Shown piece by piece: positions 6,648 to 45,889 of a DNA stretch of 64,000 nt. Source of the DNA: Candidatus Termititenax sp. (GTDB taxonomy: Bacteria; Margulisbacteria; Riflemargulisbacteria; GWF2-35-9; DYQY01). Below the pieces are notes generated by a model. The model did no database searches. It had not been told where the DNA came from and saw only the letters and a program-made list of their open reading frames with translations. The DNA is taken from positions 1-64,000 of the forward strand of contig DYQY01000007.1 in assembly GCA_020719045.1 (NCBI GenBank). Reading direction: 5' to 3'. The position numbers and the translations under genes were made by a program. The number at the start of each line of letters is the position of its first letter. Position 1 is the stretch's first letter.

Positions 6648-8559
6648 ACACCTTCGGTTTAAAAACTTAAATTCATTAGTTGGTGAATGGGAAATAGATT
6701 TTTCTTCTCCTGAATATCAAAATGAAGGTATTTTTGCGATTACAGGAAAAACAGGTGCTGGTAAATCTACAATACTTGATGCAATTTGTTTAGCTCTTTA
6801 TGGAGAGACTCCTCGATTAGGAAAAATAACTAAATCAACGAATGAGATTATGTCACGTCGAACTGGAGAATGTTTTTCAGAGGTTGTCTTTGAATCCAGC
6901 AAAGGCCAATTCAAATGTCATTTTAGCCAACGTCGCGCAAAAAACCAATCTGATGGTGAGTTGCAGAGCCAAAGGCATGAAATCTCTGACTTTATTTCAG
7001 GAGAAATTCTTGAGTCGAAGATAAAAGATGTCCAACATGCTGTTATTGCCAGAATCGGTATGGACTTTGACCAATTTACTCGTTCTATTCTTTTGGCACA
7101 AGGAGGGTTTGCGAAATTCTTAACTGCCTCCTCTGATGAAAGAGCTCCTATTTTAGAACAAATAACAGGAACAAAAATTTATAGTACCATTTCTATAAAA
7201 GTACATGAAAGAAATCGAGATGAGTTAACCAAACTAAGTGGGTTGCAATTAGAAACAAACAGCATTCAATTGCTTTCGGAGGAAGAGAAAACACAATTAA
7301 AACTAGATAGACAACAAAAGACGGAAGAGGAAAAAATACTAAAAGAAAAAAGAAATAAAATTGCAGAAGGAATAGCTTGGGTACAAACTATTTTTAGTAT
7401 CGAAAAGGACCTTCAGTTAATTGACCAGGATGAAGAGAAAATTAAAAAAGACTTAGTTGACTTTCAACCAGAGAATAATAAATTAAAAAATGCGTTACAA
7501 GCATCTGAATTAGAAGGTGAATATGCCACCATAACATCTGTTAGAAACAATTTAGAAAAAGATCAAAAACTGTCTAAAGAATATGAAGAAAATTTACCAA
7601 AAATACAAGAAGATAATGTTAAATGTAAAACAGAGCAGGAAGAAATAGAGAAGTATTTCAATAAACTAAAAGTAGATTTCAAAAGTGAACGTAACATAAT
7701 AAAAAATGTTAGAGAATTAGATTTAGTTATAAAAGAAAAGAATTTATCTTTGCAAACTTATCAGAAAGAAATTGAGTCGATTAAAGAAAATTTGGAAGAA
7801 AATAATCGAAAAAAAGATGAAACTAAAACTAGTCTTTCTATTCTCCAATCAGATATAGATAAATTAAAAGATTATTTAAAAGATAACTCAATAGATGAAA
7901 CTTTGAATAAAGAATTTTCTGATATAGAAGGTGCTTCTATCCAATACGTATCCTTATCTAATACTTTAGAAGAAACAAAAAGAGACAACTTTAAATATAA
8001 ACAGCAACAAACAGAAATTGGTGATGAAATTTCTAAACAAACAGCTATTTGTGAAACAGTTAATAGAACAGAAACTGAAATAAAAAATAAGCTCCAACAA
8101 ATAGAAAAAGATATTAAGAAATTATTAGATGGTAAGCTATTGAGAGAATACAGAACAGAACAAACAACTCTTCTAAAGGAGCAGGAATATTTACACCGTA
8201 TTCTCTCACTTGAAGAAGAAAGAAAAAAGTTAGAGGATGATAAACCTTGTCCTTTATGTGGTTCGAATCATCACCCATATGCGAAAGGTAATATTCCAGA
8301 AAAATCAAAAATAGATTTACGCTTAGAGAAATTAGAAACATTGTTTGAAGAAATAGAAAATAAAGAAGAAGAAAAAAGGAACTTAGAAACAAAAATATTA
8401 AATGTTAAAGAAGAACTTAAGACAGAAGAATTAAAGCTATCTGACATAAAATCAAAGAAAGCAACAAATGAGGCAAACCTTGAAAAAACCACTGTTGAGT
8501 TCAACAAAAAACAACAAGAACATAACCAAATTATTTCAAAACTTATATGGTTAAATTGA
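6637..8559 (+). CDS. sbcC: exonuclease SbcCD subunit C, C-terminally truncated
   Basis: Walker A GKTGAGKSTILDAICLALYGETPR; LLAQGGFAKFL; zinc hook CPLCGSNHHP; ends ~95 aa after the hook without the C-terminal ATPase lobe. Confidence 0.85.
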   Translation: MKIKHLRFKNLNSLVGEWEIDFSSPEYQNEGIFAITGKTGAGKSTILDAICLALYGETPRLGKITKSTNEIMSRRTGECFSEVVFESSKGQFKCHFSQRRAKNQSDGELQSQRHEISDFISGEILESKIKDVQHAVIARIGMDFDQFTRSILLAQGGFAKFLTASSDERAPILEQITGTKIYSTISIKVHERNRDELTKLSGLQLETNSIQLLSEEEKTQLKLDRQQKTEEEKILKEKRNKIAEGIAWVQTIFSIEKDLQLIDQDEEKIKKDLVDFQPENNKLKNALQASELEGEYATITSVRNNLEKDQKLSKEYEENLPKIQEDNVKCKTEQEEIEKYFNKLKVDFKSERNIIKNVRELDLVIKEKNLSLQTYQKEIESIKENLEENNRKKDETKTSLSILQSDIDKLKDYLKDNSIDETLNKEFSDIEGASIQYVSLSNTLEETKRDNFKYKQQQTEIGDEISKQTAICETVNRTETEIKNKLQQIEKDIKKLLDGKLLREYRTEQTTLLKEQEYLHRILSLEEERKKLEDDKPCPLCGSNHHPYAKGNIPEKSKIDLRLEKLETLFEEIENKEEEKRNLETKILNVKEELKTEELKLSDIKSKKATNEANLEKTTVEFNKKQQEHNQIISKLIWLN

Positions 8560-37072: not shown

Positions 37073-38269
37073 CTACAACAAAACGTTATCTATCGTCTTC
37101 CATAAACTATTTATAATTTGAATAGTCGTATCTTTGCCAACATTTTCCTGATAAACAACTCTAATACAATCATAATCAATAAAAAAAGTTAATGGACAAA
37201 CAGCTTCATTACAGGTTAATAAATAACCCCGCATGGAAACCTCTTGATTATAAGTCTGAAAAGAGACTAAAACAGAATATAAATGAGCTGGCAAAGAGAG
37301 TTTACTTATTGGAAACTGCTGATGCCTTAATGCTTCTTTAATCTTTTTCGAAATATTAACGAGCCCCAGATTCAATGGTTGATTGGATATATTTATTGGC
37401 AATGTGTTCACAAAAAGTCCAGGAGTACTTCTCTGTTTTTTATTTGTCCTATTTAATAAATGCACACCAAGACAAAAAGAATCAAGAAAATAAATTCTAC
37501 AAAACGTCTCACTAATAAGATAAAGCCACAAAACAAACTCTGAAACATTACTACTAATAGCTAATTCTCTTAATGCTTCTTTTTTTTCTTCATTAACAAA
37601 CATAAACTCTACCTTACTCTTCAAGTTGGTCTTATCTATCAATGAGAATACATTAATATTGCTTTGTTTATTACATAGTTCATCCTCCCAGTATTCTTTA
37701 TCCTTTTCCCAAATAGATGAACCAATATACTCCTTTTGCGAACGTAAATAATCTTTATAATCACAATCATCTAGGTTATATAAACTTACTACTTGATTAT
37801 TAATAAGCTGACTATAAATATCCATAACCCTGTTTGTTGTTATATTAATCCCATATAAATCAAATAATAAATGATGAGCTTTAATAAAATAAAAATTAGT
37901 TGCAGGTGAAATTATAATAGCAACATAAATCAATTTCTCGTCACTTACAAACATTGGCTCCCATGTTTTATTTTGCATCCACTCAATAGCTTTTTTGTCA
38001 TCCAAAACATTATCAATAAACTCACAATCACAAGCAACCATTTCTTCAAATATTTGATATGGATACCCGTCATCATCAACTAAAAACCTTGCCTTAAAAT
38101 TTGAAAAACTATTTATAGCTAAAAAACTAGCTTTAGCTAAAATTTGCAGATTAATACTTTTATCTAATTTACTATACCCAGCTACGCTCCACAAATTGCC
38201 TTTTGAAAACAACTGCTCGGCTATCCACATTTCTTCCTGCTGAATTGAAAGATTATACCTTTCCATCAT
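37073..38269 (-). CDS. stand-alone NRPS condensation domain protein
   Basis: LSIQQEEMWIAEQLF; active-site KAHHLLFDLYG; GLFVNTLPINIS. Confidence 0.85.
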   Translation of the reverse strand: MMERYNLSIQQEEMWIAEQLFSKGNLWSVAGYSKLDKSINLQILAKASFLAINSFSNFKARFLVDDDGYPYQIFEEMVACDCEFIDNVLDDKKAIEWMQNKTWEPMFVSDEKLIYVAIIISPATNFYFIKAHHLLFDLYGINITTNRVMDIYSQLINNQVVSLYNLDDCDYKDYLRSQKEYIGSSIWEKDKEYWEDELCNKQSNINVFSLIDKTNLKSKVEFMFVNEEKKEALRELAISSNVSEFVLWLYLISETFCRIYFLDSFCLGVHLLNRTNKKQRSTPGLFVNTLPINISNQPLNLGLVNISKKIKEALRHQQFPISKLSLPAHLYSVLVSFQTYNQEVSMRGYLLTCNEAVCPLTFFIDYDCIRVVYQENVGKDTTIQIINSLWKTIDNVLL

Positions 38270-41234
38270 TTATCTCCCTAAGAATCTTACCCCATTCATC
38301 TTTGCTACAAGGCAAGTAAGCACTCAAAATTAACTTATCTCCCTTTGTAGCTAAGCTAAATGTTATTGCCGATGGCCAAGTATTATTTGTCCATTTGCCA
38401 TCAATCGTACTATATAATTCTGTGCTCTCATCTACTTCCGTTCTGTAATGAAAAACAATAAAAGGCTCCAAAAGTTCTTTTTTCAAACTTACATTACTAG
38501 TGCCCTCATGAATTGTTGGATGCTTATACATATAGTTTAACCACTTTAAAGATTTAAAATTAGTAAGTGTTTTCGCCGCTTTTTTACGAATAAAATTTAT
38601 CTCATCAAATAACTCTTCTACATTCATGCCTTTTCTGAACACACAAGGAATAAAATCTGTAAATTCACCTATTGTTTTTACAAATCTACCTTCCTGATAT
38701 GCTCTTGTATCTTGAACCATAAAAAAAGGAGTATCAATATCAATCAACATTTTTGTTATCTTACTAAATATTTCTAACGACTGCATCAAACTATCCTGAT
38801 TGTCTTCTAAATCGAAAGCATGCTCATATAATGATAGATTATTCAATAGATACTTTGGAAAATCTGAGACTGCTCTATTAAATTCATCCAACTTAAACTC
38901 ACGAACAATCTCCTCTTCATTTAATAATGAACAATTTCTTAGCAACTTCAAATATTCTTCATACTGGACATTATTACCAATAGACCCTAAAAAGAAATAA
39001 CTTTTTAAAATATCAGCACCAACCTTATTATGAATAGACTCATCCATGCAAAAAACAAACAAATATCTAGTGTTAGTTACTCTAACGAAAATATGTCTAT
39101 AAGGAAAATCCTTCAATCTATCTTTGGCTAAATAATACTCTTTAATAAAAGGCAACATCTTCATTATTTGTGCTTCATTCAAACTCAATTCACTTAAATC
39201 TATCACCACTGAAGATACTTTATCCGGCATTTTAAAAACTGCCCAATAAAACTTATTGTGATTAGTAACCAAAGACGCTCGTAACAATTGCTGTTCACTC
39301 AACAAACAATTATGTCTCTCATTCAAAACATCAAACGAATAATCATTGCACCAGAGATAATCTATACTATACTTCTCGCGATACATATTTCTAAAGTTTA
39401 ACCTCCAAGGTTCAAGGTCTATTCTATCTTCAATACCACTTTCAATAAGTCTGTTAAAATATTCAATCTCCCTCTGCCTCAATTCCGACAATTTTGTCTT
39501 GATAAAGTCAGCTACTAGTGGCTTATCTTTTGTGCTATATTTATATGCAACCTCTTTTGATCCAGACGAGCTAACTAGCCTCAAAAAAGAGGTAATACTG
39601 TCTGCGGAATACATGTCAGCTATCTTTGTAGAAAAACCTATTTTCTGAAGCTTGTACATAATTCTAATCATCGACAATGAGTCAGCACCTTGCTCAACAA
39701 TACTTTTATCCATTACTATTTTTTTCCCTAAAACATCTTCTATTATTAATATAATCTGATTTGACCACGAATTATCCGAATTACTCAACTCATTTTGTTT
39801 CCAAAATAAACTAATTAACGCTTGCCTATCAATTTTTCCACCAATCGTCTTCGGCAATATCTCAAAATATAATATATCAGAAGGAATCATTTGTTCTGCT
39901 AATTTTGACTTCATCTCTGCAAAGAGAACCTTTCTATCTACTTCTGAAACTATAAAAATAACCAGTCTCGGAACGAAAATACTCTGACTAACATTTAGTA
40001 CAACAGCCTCTTTAACACCATTAATTTCTAACGAAACTCTGTTAATTTCAGCTAACTCTATTCTATAACCATTTACCTGTACTTGGTCATCTTCCCTACC
40101 CAAGAACAATAAATCTCCAGAAGACATTTTTTGCACCATGTCTCCAGTTCGATACCATTTCTTATCTTTTATGAATACAAACTTTTCCTCATTCATCTTT
40201 TCGTCTAGATAACCAAACGATACGCCCTCTCCGGCAATCAATAACTCGCCTCTGATCTCTTCTTGAACTTCAACTAAACTATCGTTTACTACCAAAACCT
40301 GTGTGTTTTTTAAAGGAGAACCTATTAACATTTGTGACCTAATACCCTCTAACTCAGCCATACTCTTTGCTTCATATACAACACTTTCTATCGTACACTC
40401 AGTTAATCCATATCCATTTATAACTCTAGCCTTAGGAAAACTCACTACTGCCCAACCAAAATCACTTCTTGAACATGCTTCTCCTCCAAAAATAATCTGC
40501 CTAATAAAGTCTGTATTTATTAAACTCGTTTTTGTTGCCTCAAGCAACAATCTTATATAGGATGGCGTTGATTCAACAATATTTGGTTTATATATATTAA
40601 TTATTTCCACCAAATAGCTAAGATTTAATTTGTCTTCCTTGTTAACAATAATCAATGTTCCAGCCCAAAAAAGTGATTTAATAAGGTTTCCAATGAACAT
40701 ATCTGTACTTATACTAGATAACTGTAAAACCTTGGGGGAAAAAGAATCCAATTTATAAAAATCTTGCCAGGCATCCATTAAACTTACAATATTGTCATAA
40801 CTAATCTGAACAGCTTTCGGAGTACCTGTCGAGCCAGAAGTAAACATTAAGTATGCTATTCTTTTTCCAAAATTAACACTTTCTTTTCCCGATAATTTTT
40901 TATGAAAAATCCCATCATTTTCCGCTATAATCAATTTAACTTTTGCTTGCTCTACATAAAAATCAATTCTTAATTCTGGAGTATCTTCATCTATAGTTAT
41001 CACAGTAGCACCTATTCTCCAAATAGCCAAAAAATAGGCTACAGCCATAAACGAGCATCTCATCTTTAAGGCTACAATATCACCTTCATTAATCCCCAAG
41101 CTTACAATTTCTTTGTAAATAACTTCTATTGTTTCCAAAAGATATTTATATGTATACTCTTTCTTTGCATAAATAATCGCAACCGATTCTGGATTACAGT
41201 TCGCTTTTTCTTCAAATTTCTTAAAAAATACCAT
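38253..41234 (-). CDS. NRPS, domains A-T-C*
   Basis: A motifs LMFTSGSTGTPKAV, NGYGLTE, YRTGDMV, GGKIDRQAL; carrier EQGADSLSMI; C-terminal condensation-like region with DESIHNKVG in place of HHxxxDG. Confidence 0.9.
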   Translation of the reverse strand: MVFFKKFEEKANCNPESVAIIYAKKEYTYKYLLETIEVIYKEIVSLGINEGDIVALKMRCSFMAVAYFLAIWRIGATVITIDEDTPELRIDFYVEQAKVKLIIAENDGIFHKKLSGKESVNFGKRIAYLMFTSGSTGTPKAVQISYDNIVSLMDAWQDFYKLDSFSPKVLQLSSISTDMFIGNLIKSLFWAGTLIIVNKEDKLNLSYLVEIINIYKPNIVESTPSYIRLLLEATKTSLINTDFIRQIIFGGEACSRSDFGWAVVSFPKARVINGYGLTECTIESVVYEAKSMAELEGIRSQMLIGSPLKNTQVLVVNDSLVEVQEEIRGELLIAGEGVSFGYLDEKMNEEKFVFIKDKKWYRTGDMVQKMSSGDLLFLGREDDQVQVNGYRIELAEINRVSLEINGVKEAVVLNVSQSIFVPRLVIFIVSEVDRKVLFAEMKSKLAEQMIPSDILYFEILPKTIGGKIDRQALISLFWKQNELSNSDNSWSNQIILIIEDVLGKKIVMDKSIVEQGADSLSMIRIMYKLQKIGFSTKIADMYSADSITSFLRLVSSSGSKEVAYKYSTKDKPLVADFIKTKLSELRQREIEYFNRLIESGIEDRIDLEPWRLNFRNMYREKYSIDYLWCNDYSFDVLNERHNCLLSEQQLLRASLVTNHNKFYWAVFKMPDKVSSVVIDLSELSLNEAQIMKMLPFIKEYYLAKDRLKDFPYRHIFVRVTNTRYLFVFCMDESIHNKVGADILKSYFFLGSIGNNVQYEEYLKLLRNCSLLNEEEIVREFKLDEFNRAVSDFPKYLLNNLSLYEHAFDLEDNQDSLMQSLEIFSKITKMLIDIDTPFFMVQDTRAYQEGRFVKTIGEFTDFIPCVFRKGMNVEELFDEINFIRKKAAKTLTNFKSLKWLNYMYKHPTIHEGTSNVSLKKELLEPFIVFHYRTEVDESTELYSTIDGKWTNNTWPSAITFSLATKGDKLILSAYLPCSKDEWGKILREINDGKV

Positions 41235-41278
41235 TTTATTATGCCTCGATAACCCTTTTTGTTAATCTAAATAATATA

Positions 41279-44200
41279 TCACTGAGGATCTCTAATTTCA
41301 GTATACTTAGTTTCAAATGCCTGTCTAATCTCATTTGCATTGACTTGATAAGGAAATCTAATAAAAACCTCACAAACGCCATCTACTACTGTTACATTAA
41401 AGCTTATACCATATAGCCATCTATTTATAGCACTTTGATCATCACTAAAAACTTCATCTATACTTATATCCCCTTGTTTAAAATTAAACAAAAGCAGTCT
41501 GTTTGTCTCTTCTAATTTGCCAACTATTTGCTTAACTCTCCTTGAGAACGGATTACTCTTTAAATTTTTGTTAAATAATAGATTCTTAAAATGAATACCA
41601 TTTTGATTAACAACTTCCAAAATCGAATGAATATTTACTATATTATCTTCAGCTGACAAAGTAGTATCCACTATAACTGGAACCCCATCAATAAATGCTC
41701 CGATACTATTCGCAAGGGATTCTGCATCAAAAAACCTTGTGTTATGAAGCATAATTATTGGAATATTTGTAAAAGGGAAATGACTCTTTGCAAACACCAA
41801 AAACAAATTCATCGCAACATTTAACTCATTAATCTCACTCTTATTTATAACAATTTTGTATCTAAAGGATGAATGCTTTTTTTGCTTACAAATTTTCTTA
41901 GACAAAAACTTAGAATAAATATTAATATGCTTAATAAACTCATCTAGGCTTAACTCCGACAAAAGATTTTCCTGGTTAGATAACCCAGAATTTATTATGA
42001 ATCTATGTATGTATTCCTTGTAACCAATAGACTTAGGATATTCCTTAAACCCATCATTAGCTACACTAATTAAATAATAATTAATAAGCATGTTTCCATA
42101 GTCATCATGAATACTATCATCCATGAAATAGTATAAAAAAGTTTCACTTAGATTAAATTTAACTACAATTGCTCTAAACGTAAACCTTCTTAGATTATTA
42201 TTAGAAGAAAAATATTCATTTAAAACACTATAGACAAAATCGTAGCTTGAAAATACTTCATAACTAGACAAATCTAAAACAGGAATACAGCAGTCACTTT
42301 CAGAAAAAATCTCCCAACTATATTTCATTAACCCATTTTTTACTAAACCAGCCCGAAGTAAATCATTTTTACTCATTAACTCACTTATTGCTCTACTTAT
42401 TTCTAAAATTTTATTATCATCAATCCTAATCAGCGAAACAAAATAGACATTTCTATAAAACTTCCTTAAGTCACTAGAATACAAAGGATCCTCTAATTTA
42501 TAAGAAACACCACCAGAAATAAGTTTATTAAACAATTCTACCTCTTGTTTATTTACTTTTACCAGCAACTCCTTTGCCTTATTAGCATCAATAACTTTGT
42601 AATCCTTATCCATCAAATATTGTGGTTGAATATTATTAGAAAATCTCTGCTTACAAAAGTCTATTATTCCCTGTTTATTCAAAAAACTCTTGTCTTCAGA
42701 CACATACAAATAGCTAATTTTTTTGGAAAGTTTTTCATTATATACATTCTTTACCAAAACACCTTCACCAAAACACCTTAACAAAACAACATTAGCTCTG
42801 TCTAAATCACTAATTTTATCTCGCACAATAAATGTGCTGTAAAAATCCTCTAAAGAAAAACTTCTATATATATCAAGATAACTACACTTATAGCCTAATC
42901 CATTTAGTTTGGAAGCTATTTTAATTGCTTCTAATGAGTCAGCTCCCATCTGAATAAAACTCATTGATGCAACAAACTTCGCGCCTAAGACTTCCTTCCA
43001 CACGCTTAATACTAGACTCTTATCAAAGGACAAAATGTCCCCTTCAGGCAATTTACTTACTGGAATAATTAATTTCATCTCAGCTAGTATCTTTCTATCC
43101 ACCTTACCATTAGCTGATATTGGCATTTCATCTAACCTACAAAAAAAGTTAGGCACCATATAGTCTGGCAACAACTCCTTTAACCTTAGCACAAAGTTTA
43201 TATGTGATATTTCCTTGCTAGACTGATAATAGGCAACTATTACTTTACTATCATACACATCTTTTGTAACAACTATAGCTTTTACATGAAAAAGCTTCTC
43301 GATACATGATTCTATTTCACCTGGTTCAACTCTGTATCCACGTACCTTTATTTGAAAATCCTTTCTGCCAATAAACTGTATATTCCCATCACTGAGTAGT
43401 CTAACTAAATCACCAGTTCGATAAACTCTACCAATATCGTCGATATCTATAAACTTTTGCTTTGTTAACTCACTAGAAGTATATCCAGCAGCTAACCCAT
43501 AACCATAAATAATTAGCTCTCCATCTACTCCTACACCGACCTGCCTTAAATCCTCATCTAGGACATACATTTTTGTATTTCTAAATGGCTTTCCAATTGG
43601 CAAGTTCCCATATAATGGCAATTTGCAATCTTTGCATAAAAAATAATCGCTACTATAGATTGCAGCCTCAGATACCCCATATGAATTTATTACCATTGCT
43701 CTATTCAGATACCTTGCATTTAGTTTCCTAAAATCCTCGACAGAGCAAATATCCGACCCAACTACGACTAACTTTATGGTACTATCGTCAACATTTTGCT
43801 TTTCCATATAACCCACCAATAATGAAATTAACGAAGGTGTGGAATCTAAAACATTCACATTATAGTCTTCTATCATACGTGAAAGTGAACTAAGGCTGTG
43901 TCTCTCATCCTCAGTGGGGAGAACCAAGGTACCACCAGTGCAGACAGTCTTTAAGTAATTTCCAATAAACACATCATGTGCAAATGAAGATGTCTGCAAA
44001 AGCACAAACTCTTCTCCAACAATTTTGTATTTAAACTCCCACGCTTCTAATACATTCACAACAGCTCTGTGCGTATTTATTACGCCTTTAGGTTCACCTG
44101 TAGATCCAGAGGTATAAACCATATAACAAGGTGAATAATCTTCAACATGCTCTTTAGTAAAAATCTGAAAAGAATCTGTGATACTCTCAAACAATACTTG

Positions 44201-45889
44201 TTTACATACAACATCCAATAAGCTATCAGTTACCAATAACATACTTTTGCTATCCTCAATAATCTTCTGTATTCTCTGGAGTGGGTCATTTTTGCTAATT
44301 GGTAAAAAAACAGCCCCACACAAAAATATTCCTGTAATACAAGCTATCATGTCTACCGAATAATCCATGATAACAGCGACTCTATCACCAACCTTAACTC
44401 CTTGGCTTTGCAAATATCCTGAAACCCTGTAAGATATCTCAAAAAGTTGATCATATGAATATGACCTTCCATTACAAATGACAGCTGTGTTTATATGCTT
44501 TCTGTTTGCTACATCCTCTAACACAGAACATAAATTGTCTTTATATAGAATTGCTTCAGTATCATTCATTTTTCTAATAATCTCTTGCTCAATATTTGTT
44601 AAAATTCTAATGTCTTTTAAATTACTAAAGCTTTCACTTATTATCTGATTAAAAAACAATCTGAACTTCTGAACAAATATTTCCATATCTTCTTCAGAGA
44701 AAAGACTCTCATCAAAGTACATACTCATAACTACTTTTTTTTGTATTTGGAATTCTCTTACTCGAACATCCAATGAACATTGAATCATCCCGTTAAATAA
44801 CGTGATAACTTCTGAGGAAAATCCTCCCGTTAGATAATTATGGTCATGAGGTTCATATGAAAAATTAATTGATTCTCCAAGGTCATATCCCTCAGAAATC
44901 GCTCCTTCATAAAACTCCTTCCAAGAACACTTCTGGTGCCGATAACCTTCTTTTAAATCGTTTGAAATACTTGCAAATAAAGAGCTTAAATTGTCACCTA
45001 TTTCAACCATAACAGGCGCAATACTAGCAAAACAACCTAAGCTACATTTTTGTGGCTTTGACAATCTATTCTGAAGCCGAACATTTAATAAAACCTTGTT
45101 TCTAGATGTCCTAGCTCTAATAATTAACATAAACACAGCAATAAAGAAATTAAAAATACTTATATTATTCTCACTGCAATACCTTAAAATTGTTGCATAC
45201 TCCTCTGAATCTATCTCTACCTCTTTTGCAATTGCAGAAGCGACTATATTCTTTCGCTTTATATTTGAAGCTGACCAGTTGTACTCTTTGAGTAACTTAA
45301 CTTTATCTTTCCAAAACTTGCTATCACTTATATATTTTGCAGAATTAAAATACTCCTTATCTTGGTCTAAAAATTCAAAAAAAGAAAAATTGTGTGAAGG
45401 AGAAAACGCACTTCGTTTAATCTTGTCGTAATACTCAGCTATCTTATGTGCCGTTATTGCAATACTAAACCCATCAGCAATTAAGTGACTATACACTGAA
45501 TAACAATAGGAATTATTATCCGTTAACAAAATTCCTATCTCAAACAACTTACCACTCTGTAAATCAAATGGAGTCTTCATTCGATTTGCCACCCAGTCTT
45601 CGCAAGCTTTTTCTGGATTAATCTCATTACTAAAGTCTCTAACAACTACCTCAGTCTCTATATCAGCAACCTCTTGTAAGTATTCACCATTCTCATTGCG
45701 CACAAAAAATGTTTTAAGGATATTATTTTCTTCACACACTGCTCGCACAGCTCTTCTAAATATTGCATAATCCATTCTGCCATGAATAAAAATATACCCA
45801 CCAATATTTAAGTGTGGAGAATCAATAGCTAAAAACTGTTCATTTAAATATTGTTTCTGGATGTAACTTAAAGGAAATCTGTTTGCCAT
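41279..45889 (-). CDS. NRPS, domains C-A-T-C*
   Basis: C domain YSHLIADGFS; A motifs MVYTSGSTGEPKGV, NSYGVSE, YRTGDLV, NGKVDRKIL; carrier MGADSLEAI; C-terminal condensation-like region with DDSIHDDYG. Confidence 0.92.
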   Translation of the reverse strand: MANRFPLSYIQKQYLNEQFLAIDSPHLNIGGYIFIHGRMDYAIFRRAVRAVCEENNILKTFFVRNENGEYLQEVADIETEVVVRDFSNEINPEKACEDWVANRMKTPFDLQSGKLFEIGILLTDNNSYCYSVYSHLIADGFSIAITAHKIAEYYDKIKRSAFSPSHNFSFFEFLDQDKEYFNSAKYISDSKFWKDKVKLLKEYNWSASNIKRKNIVASAIAKEVEIDSEEYATILRYCSENNISIFNFFIAVFMLIIRARTSRNKVLLNVRLQNRLSKPQKCSLGCFASIAPVMVEIGDNLSSLFASISNDLKEGYRHQKCSWKEFYEGAISEGYDLGESINFSYEPHDHNYLTGGFSSEVITLFNGMIQCSLDVRVREFQIQKKVVMSMYFDESLFSEEDMEIFVQKFRLFFNQIISESFSNLKDIRILTNIEQEIIRKMNDTEAILYKDNLCSVLEDVANRKHINTAVICNGRSYSYDQLFEISYRVSGYLQSQGVKVGDRVAVIMDYSVDMIACITGIFLCGAVFLPISKNDPLQRIQKIIEDSKSMLLVTDSLLDVVCKQVLFESITDSFQIFTKEHVEDYSPCYMVYTSGSTGEPKGVINTHRAVVNVLEAWEFKYKIVGEEFVLLQTSSFAHDVFIGNYLKTVCTGGTLVLPTEDERHSLSSLSRMIEDYNVNVLDSTPSLISLLVGYMEKQNVDDSTIKLVVVGSDICSVEDFRKLNARYLNRAMVINSYGVSEAAIYSSDYFLCKDCKLPLYGNLPIGKPFRNTKMYVLDEDLRQVGVGVDGELIIYGYGLAAGYTSSELTKQKFIDIDDIGRVYRTGDLVRLLSDGNIQFIGRKDFQIKVRGYRVEPGEIESCIEKLFHVKAIVVTKDVYDSKVIVAYYQSSKEISHINFVLRLKELLPDYMVPNFFCRLDEMPISANGKVDRKILAEMKLIIPVSKLPEGDILSFDKSLVLSVWKEVLGAKFVASMSFIQMGADSLEAIKIASKLNGLGYKCSYLDIYRSFSLEDFYSTFIVRDKISDLDRANVVLLRCFGEGVLVKNVYNEKLSKKISYLYVSEDKSFLNKQGIIDFCKQRFSNNIQPQYLMDKDYKVIDANKAKELLVKVNKQEVELFNKLISGGVSYKLEDPLYSSDLRKFYRNVYFVSLIRIDDNKILEISRAISELMSKNDLLRAGLVKNGLMKYSWEIFSESDCCIPVLDLSSYEVFSSYDFVYSVLNEYFSSNNNLRRFTFRAIVVKFNLSETFLYYFMDDSIHDDYGNMLINYYLISVANDGFKEYPKSIGYKEYIHRFIINSGLSNQENLLSELSLDEFIKHINIYSKFLSKKICKQKKHSSFRYKIVINKSEINELNVAMNLFLVFAKSHFPFTNIPIIMLHNTRFFDAESLANSIGAFIDGVPVIVDTTLSAEDNIVNIHSILEVVNQNGIHFKNLLFNKNLKSNPFSRRVKQIVGKLEETNRLLLFNFKQGDISIDEVFSDDQSAINRWLYGISFNVTVVDGVCEVFIRFPYQVNANEIRQAFETKYTEIRDPQ

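Follow-up and report, generated by a model that had tools for sequence, protein, structure and literature searches.

Both nonribosomal peptide synthetase (NRPS) proteins encoded in the window, i.e. the whole 64,000-nucleotide stretch of a Candidatus Termititenax sp. contig (DYQY01000007.1), end in an unusual domain behind their carrier, here called X1 and X2. Judged from their sequences, these X domains are a real, coherent branch of the condensation (C) superfamily with an unusual and conserved active-site swap, and with a catalytic role that we infer. The reading put forward here, tentatively and as something short of probable, is that X1 and X2 represent an order-wide C-superfamily branch that follows a carrier and might still work on the carrier-bound intermediate, X1 by transfer and X2 by release.

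The host genome comprises 1.75 Mb in 31 contigs, with a completeness of 99%. Its NRPS locus consists of three adjacent genes on the minus strand, winA (C-A-T-X1), winB (A-T-X2) and winC (a stand-alone C), flanked by housekeeping genes including mnmA, bioB, nadA and birA; all features given below lie on the same strand. Two NRPS ORFs with a C-terminal region after the carrier had been described in an earlier note on this DNA, and both are present as described. The ORF winA (41,279–45,889; 1536 aa) has Pfam Condensation and AMP-binding matches. Its N-terminal C domain (44,582–45,883; PF00668, E 9e-48) falls in the starter-like clade of the tree described below and lacks the first His, reading SHLIADG; the counterpart in the sister genome G001 reads NHLIADG, and HHxxxDS is found in related domains of the order. 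Next come A domain 1 (43,079–44,518; PF00501), with DVGDVGSIYK as manually mapped specificity positions, and carrier (T) domain 1, recognised in the sequence by FIQMGADSL (approximately 42,815–43,027; GADSL at aa 982). A linker of about 75 aa (42,587–42,814) leads to X1 (41,282–42,598). This linker is co-linear with the C-terminal subdomain of A domains (hhalign probability 51%) and is possibly a degenerate A-subdomain; the same type recurs in the order genomes G001 and G006 and in Paenibacillus, Bacillus-like and Eleftheria proteins.

The ORF winB (38,253–41,234; 993 aa; PF00501) starts with A domain 2 (39,810–41,216; PF00501), whose manually mapped specificity positions DMGEIGGIEK resemble ornithine codes, a lead and not a prediction. 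It is followed by carrier domain 2 (approximately 39,567–39,767; VEQGADSL, from the sequence) and X2 (38,256–39,524). The end of winB is overlapped by 17 bases by winC (37,073–38,269; 398 aa; PF00668, E 1e-39), a member of the starter-like C clade. Its motif HHLLFDL has Leu for Gly; winC is conserved in G001, where the motif reads HHLLSDF. Only two PF00668 matches occur in the host genome, both within this cluster, and the single phosphopantetheinyl transferase match lies in an AcpS-sized frame of 147 aa.

X1 and X2 are paralogues. They share 22% identity over 415 columns in BLASTP (E 2e-26), with a bit score of 112 compared to at most 27.3 in 200 shuffles, and all four pairs of blocks quoted in the earlier note as common to both C-termini align in register. 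Neither domain alone gave a Pfam match, even at E 10, and phmmer searches of the PDB with single X domains returned nothing useful, so a profile was needed. Profile A1, made from the ten X sequences of Margulisbacteria, matches X1 at 41,306–42,598 (E 1e-161) and X2 (E 6.5e-152), both being members of the profile themselves. In the PDB, it matched the C domains of SrfA-C and PvdL at E 2e-4. In the wider alignment (profile A3), to which three His-bearing relatives were added, the match to PvdL rose to 8e-16; the heterocyclization (Cy) domains of EpoB and BmdB were also listed, as was, weakly, the CT domain of TqaA (E 0.2). PF00668 was matched by five of the ten family members (best 1e-9), and hhalign paired the Margulisbacteria X with LCL domains at a probability of 96% (E 3e-9) and with the His-bearing X relatives at 100% (E 1e-43). 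These profile matches place X1 and X2 in the NRPS condensation superfamily, in line with the resemblance pointed out before.

An HMM alignment to solved C domains places D/E/S/I/H/D on H/H/x/x/x/D, which bears out that the second His is replaced by D or E. The C3-equivalent motif is DDSIHDD in X1 (aa 1257–1263; 42,101–42,121) and DESIHNK in X2 (aa 731–737; 39,024–39,044), so that the DxxxxD of the former (DDSIHD) corresponds to DxxxxN in the latter (DESIHN), with Asn at the last acidic position, as had been observed. Inspection of the C-terminal domains of winA and winB for an overlooked HHxxxDG elsewhere found none. Among the ten Margulisbacteria copies, HHxxxDG with the second His, expected of an active canonical C domain, is absent throughout, as is HRxxxDD, the motif of glycopeptide X domains.

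Conservation of the D/E...D/N residues in homologues, proposed earlier as a check, was read from the same ten copies. At the first-His position, eight have Asp, one Ser and one Asn. The second-His position is always acidic (Glu in eight, Asp in two), compared to His in 4/4 relatives and in 34/35 C/E domains and Ala or Leu in Cy domains. The C3 Asp is present in eight copies and in all other domains, with Asn in X2 and its genus orthologue. At the x3 position, which is variable in C domains, His is found in nine copies, the exception reading SEAIDD; this column ranks 7 of 414 in conservation. Only the acid and the Ile of the motif are kept strictly across all ten. The C2 Arg is kept in nine copies and the Arg of the ‘GR’ block in all; R83 occurs in nine, while R275 and D291 are invariant. 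The Asp of the G-x-F-x-D block (SIGAFIDGVP in X1, 41,678–41,707; TIGEFTDF in X2, 38,652–38,675) is found in 10/10 copies and 3/4 relatives, as opposed to mostly Asn, Ser, Gly, Ala or Thr in other C/E domains. When genus members are compared, all 15/15 positions of the X2 motif window are identical, with an overall identity of 58%. The X1 window (13/15 at 53% overall) is conserved but not exceptional, since 35 of 439 windows equal or exceed it, nor is the motif window exceptional between G005 and G002 (80% identity). Within the X domain, the altered loop belongs to the better conserved parts, and the swap of the second His is probably meaningful, since it is common to every sequenced member of the order.

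A tree of 55 domains was built from the full C-superfamily domains of the loci at hand together with Cy domains from cyanobacterial, Streptomyces and Methylosinus plasmids, a hand-written Cy consensus being used only to fetch the latter. Its reference groups are labelled by motif and position and not by curated annotation. All 14 X domains lie on one side of a branch (support 100/99) and the ten Margulisbacteria copies group together (100/99), while the Cy, E, DCL and starter-like groups each cohere at at least 97 (E at 100/98). The X clade is separate from the sampled LCL-like, DCL, E, starter-like and Cy domains. Judged against these sampled subtypes, with glycopeptide X, interface, CT, FUM14, SgcC5 and others outside the tree, it is apparently a new branch of the C superfamily, consistent with the new subtype that the earlier note had suggested and proposed to check by phylogeny.

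Searching with profile A1, the X domain was found in 7/7 genomes of the order to which the host belongs (Candidatus Margulisbacteria), whose members include Candidatus Margulisbacteria GWF2_35_9 and an uncultured Ca. Marinamargulisbacteria MAG, and in 0/67 genomes from the rest of the phylum. The phage collection gave no match, and a profile search widened over genome contigs found only two loci. With tblastn, relatives were retrieved from two plasmids of Paenibacillus sp. IHB B 3084, from Eleftheria terrae and from a Bacillus-like stretch that is deposited as part of a Klebsiella plasmid. Each of the four is the last domain of its protein, lies behind a carrier and has the second His (HHAICDR, SHIIFDA, HHVLFDR and NHMIFDG). 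The Paenibacillus (WP_134914683.1, WP_250636808.1) and Eleftheria (WP_301260677.1) domains belong to the same clade as X (100/99) and share with X1 the A-T-linker-X layout, the GxxxD block and the linker module. Unlike X1 and X2, they keep the second His (HHAICDR, SHIIFDA, HHVLFDR) and have no x3 His. To our knowledge, no function has been assigned to these post-carrier C-like domains. The fourth stretch (L060, CP079755.1, 283,521–302,513), filed as a ‘Klebsiella grimontii’ plasmid, looks like Bacillus DNA because of its 30% GC, a FosB bacillithiol transferase and NRPS pieces, and is perhaps the result of a mixed assembly.

Most likely, the acid was gained once, before the order diversified, and the swap is derived, since the second His is present both in the closest relatives and in C domains from outside the clade; this direction is read from sister and outgroup domains and not from a rooted test. 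The X branch would then descend from HHxxxDG-type post-carrier domains, which survive in Paenibacillus, the Bacillus-like contig and Eleftheria. In Margulisbacteria, the second His would have changed to Glu or Asp and the residue before the structural Asp to His, with the C2 Arg, the ‘GR’ Arg and, in 8/10 copies, the C3 Asp being retained.

The order of domains points to what X1 and X2 might do. Nine of the X copies in the order lie directly behind a carrier, whereas the X of G003 is a protein of its own (442 aa), encoded two bases downstream of a C-A-T gene. In G004, an ordinary C domain (HHIISDG) closes the first protein and the next starts with A, followed by A-T-X and A-T-X. Hence, in this lineage a module's C can sit at the end of the preceding protein, and by such an arrangement X1 would stand in place of the missing C of module 2. 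In both G002 and G005, one C-A-T-X protein stands alone near nadA and mnmA, which implies that X acts there only on its own carrier or on release; in G006, the X protein is possibly followed by a protein with its own C domain. No PF00975 thioesterase above the cut-off was found in the host or in any of the seven order genomes, with the reservation that PF00975 misses some kinds of hydrolases. With X2 as the last domain of winB, this fits the position expected of a terminal condensation domain.

Acyl transfer for X1 and release for X2 are suggested by this post-carrier position and by the lack of thioesterase domains in the order. In place of the missing C of module 2, X1 would pass the acyl group from T1 to the aminoacyl on T2. 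X2, which closes a line that lacks a thioesterase, would release the chain, e.g. by lactam formation if residue 2 is ornithine, which the ornithine-like code of winB would allow, or by a transfer in which winC assists. In both domains, the acid and the new His would position or deprotonate the amine in place of the lost His. That X1 transfers while X2 releases we infer from domain order alone, and release may also be done elsewhere, as PF00975 misses some hydrolases.

A more specific proposal, which we consider rather unlikely as it stands, is that X is an active C-family domain whose base or positioning role has moved to the acid and the x3 His (E-x-x-H), serving transfer or release without a thioesterase. 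In favour of the main reading as well, the X domains are not drifting: the acid is kept in 10/10 copies and the x3 His in 9/10, along with the conserved Arg and Asp residues. C domains do not all use the second His in the same way, some do not require it, and one with HQxxxDM is active (PMC11546977). What speaks against an active domain, in either reading, is the lost catalytic His, the missing x3 His in one copy and the Asn in place of the C3 Asp in two. A C domain that has lost its catalytic His is usually inactive.

It is possible, though doubtful, that X is a non-catalytic platform or gate which keeps the C fold and binds a partner enzyme or separates carriers, a docking or gatekeeping role that the earlier note had also raised. 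Besides the loss of the catalytic His in all ten copies, the location of X at protein ends would suit this role. Glycopeptide X domains recruit P450s, and siderophore interface domains serve hydroxylases. These known partners are missing: P450s were found in 0/7 order genomes (control positive in 7/14) and TauD-family hydroxylases in 0/7 (control positive only in E. coli), and no other obvious tailoring gene lies beside the NRPS genes of the window. Moreover, the altered loop is conserved beyond the need of a pure scaffold, though a binding surface could be conserved too. A comparable loss is known from glycopeptide X domains, with HRxxxDD (PMC11546977, PMC8949500), and these are inactive platforms with a changed motif (PMC8949500). 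They resemble X1 and X2 in belonging to the C superfamily, in standing at the end of the line and in having a changed catalytic motif (PMC11546977). They differ in their HRxxxDD and in recruiting P450s, lie outside the tree sample, and the teicoplanin X-domain structure was not listed by profile A3 at E up to 1. From the siderophore interface domain, X is set apart by the absent partner gene only.

The two enzymatic subtypes named in the earlier note were not supported. That X is a Cy domain or a derivative of one, as DxxxxD and GEFT might suggest, is very improbable. DDSIHD fits DxxxxD, the strict D....D being present in about six to seven of the ten copies (N or S at one end otherwise), and the whole X clade with Cy stays compatible as a deep sister grouping (p 0.106). 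However, the AU test rejects Margulisbacteria X with Cy (p 0.0006), and in hhalign the profile match to Cy is the weakest (2.5% versus 96% for LCL and 100% for the His-bearing X). At the second-His position, Cy domains have Ala or Leu versus Glu or Asp in X; the first D is S or N in two X copies, and the Asn before the conserved Arg of Cy is T, C or A in X. This reading was dropped, the DxxxxD likeness being superficial within a common superfamily and X forming a separate clade. Little credence can be given to an epimerization or dual E/C domain that works on the carrier before it: the post-carrier position is that of an E domain, but X with E is weakly rejected (p 0.03), the E clade is separate (100/98), and both the catalytic His and an HHxxxDxxSW-type motif are absent. 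A decaying, functionless C-domain remnant, for which the lost His and the low pairwise identity could be cited, is scarcely credible, as X is full length and in frame in 7/7 order genomes, with the acid, the Ile and flanking residues conserved across 20–25% identity.

Compared to canonical C domains (SrfA-C, PvdL, LCL/DCL), X shares the N-lobe homology, the C2 Arg, the C3 Asp (8/10), the GR Arg and the G-x-F block. It differs by Glu or Asp for the second His, by Asp for Asn, Ser or Gly in the C5-like block and by a C-lobe that is hardly recognisable by HMM. Fungal CT domains, the putrescine-adding C13 of glidonin and the fatty-acid-amide C domain OaaC end a line or act without a thioesterase, like X2, and all of them keep the second His, unlike X (PMC11546977, PMC10587159, PMC13142362). 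The tree was drawn without CT and OaaC sequences. Whether the second His of HHxxxDG acts as a base, acts as a positioning group or is dispensable is debated (PMC11546977, PMC8097023). An order with an acid at this position and close relatives with His offers a natural before-and-after pair on that question. X also adds a post-carrier C-family clade, missed by Pfam in both copies of the window, and thioesterase-less NRPS lines in a candidate phylum for which the literature searched holds no description of such enzymes. One paper reportedly links Margulisbacteria with NRPS clusters; our literature search found none joining Marinamargulisbacteria with nonribosomal peptides.

Some further features were noted around the relatives. 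In Eleftheria (L047:17162-25687) and on Paenibacillus plasmid pHD01 (L048:22369-26175), the A-T-X protein is paired with an NRPS whose terminal C-like domain groups beside E domains (99/96), a hint that the two have a pathway in common. On pHD02 (L051), a frame of 7027 aa has extra condensation matches to the C-lobe only (aa 1068–1327, 2411–2669 and 6835–7018), which sit directly after full C domains. A similar C-lobe-only match (aa 89–225) occurs on pHD01 (L048:17645-22480), where it opens the protein encoded next to A-T-X, on the far side of that gene's end. Within the order, G006 (GWF2_35_9) encodes a protein (L027:4986-9917, minus strand) in which the A domain is interrupted by radical SAM and B12-binding domains, placed by Pfam at aa 172–335 and 514–625, respectively, and followed by T and X.
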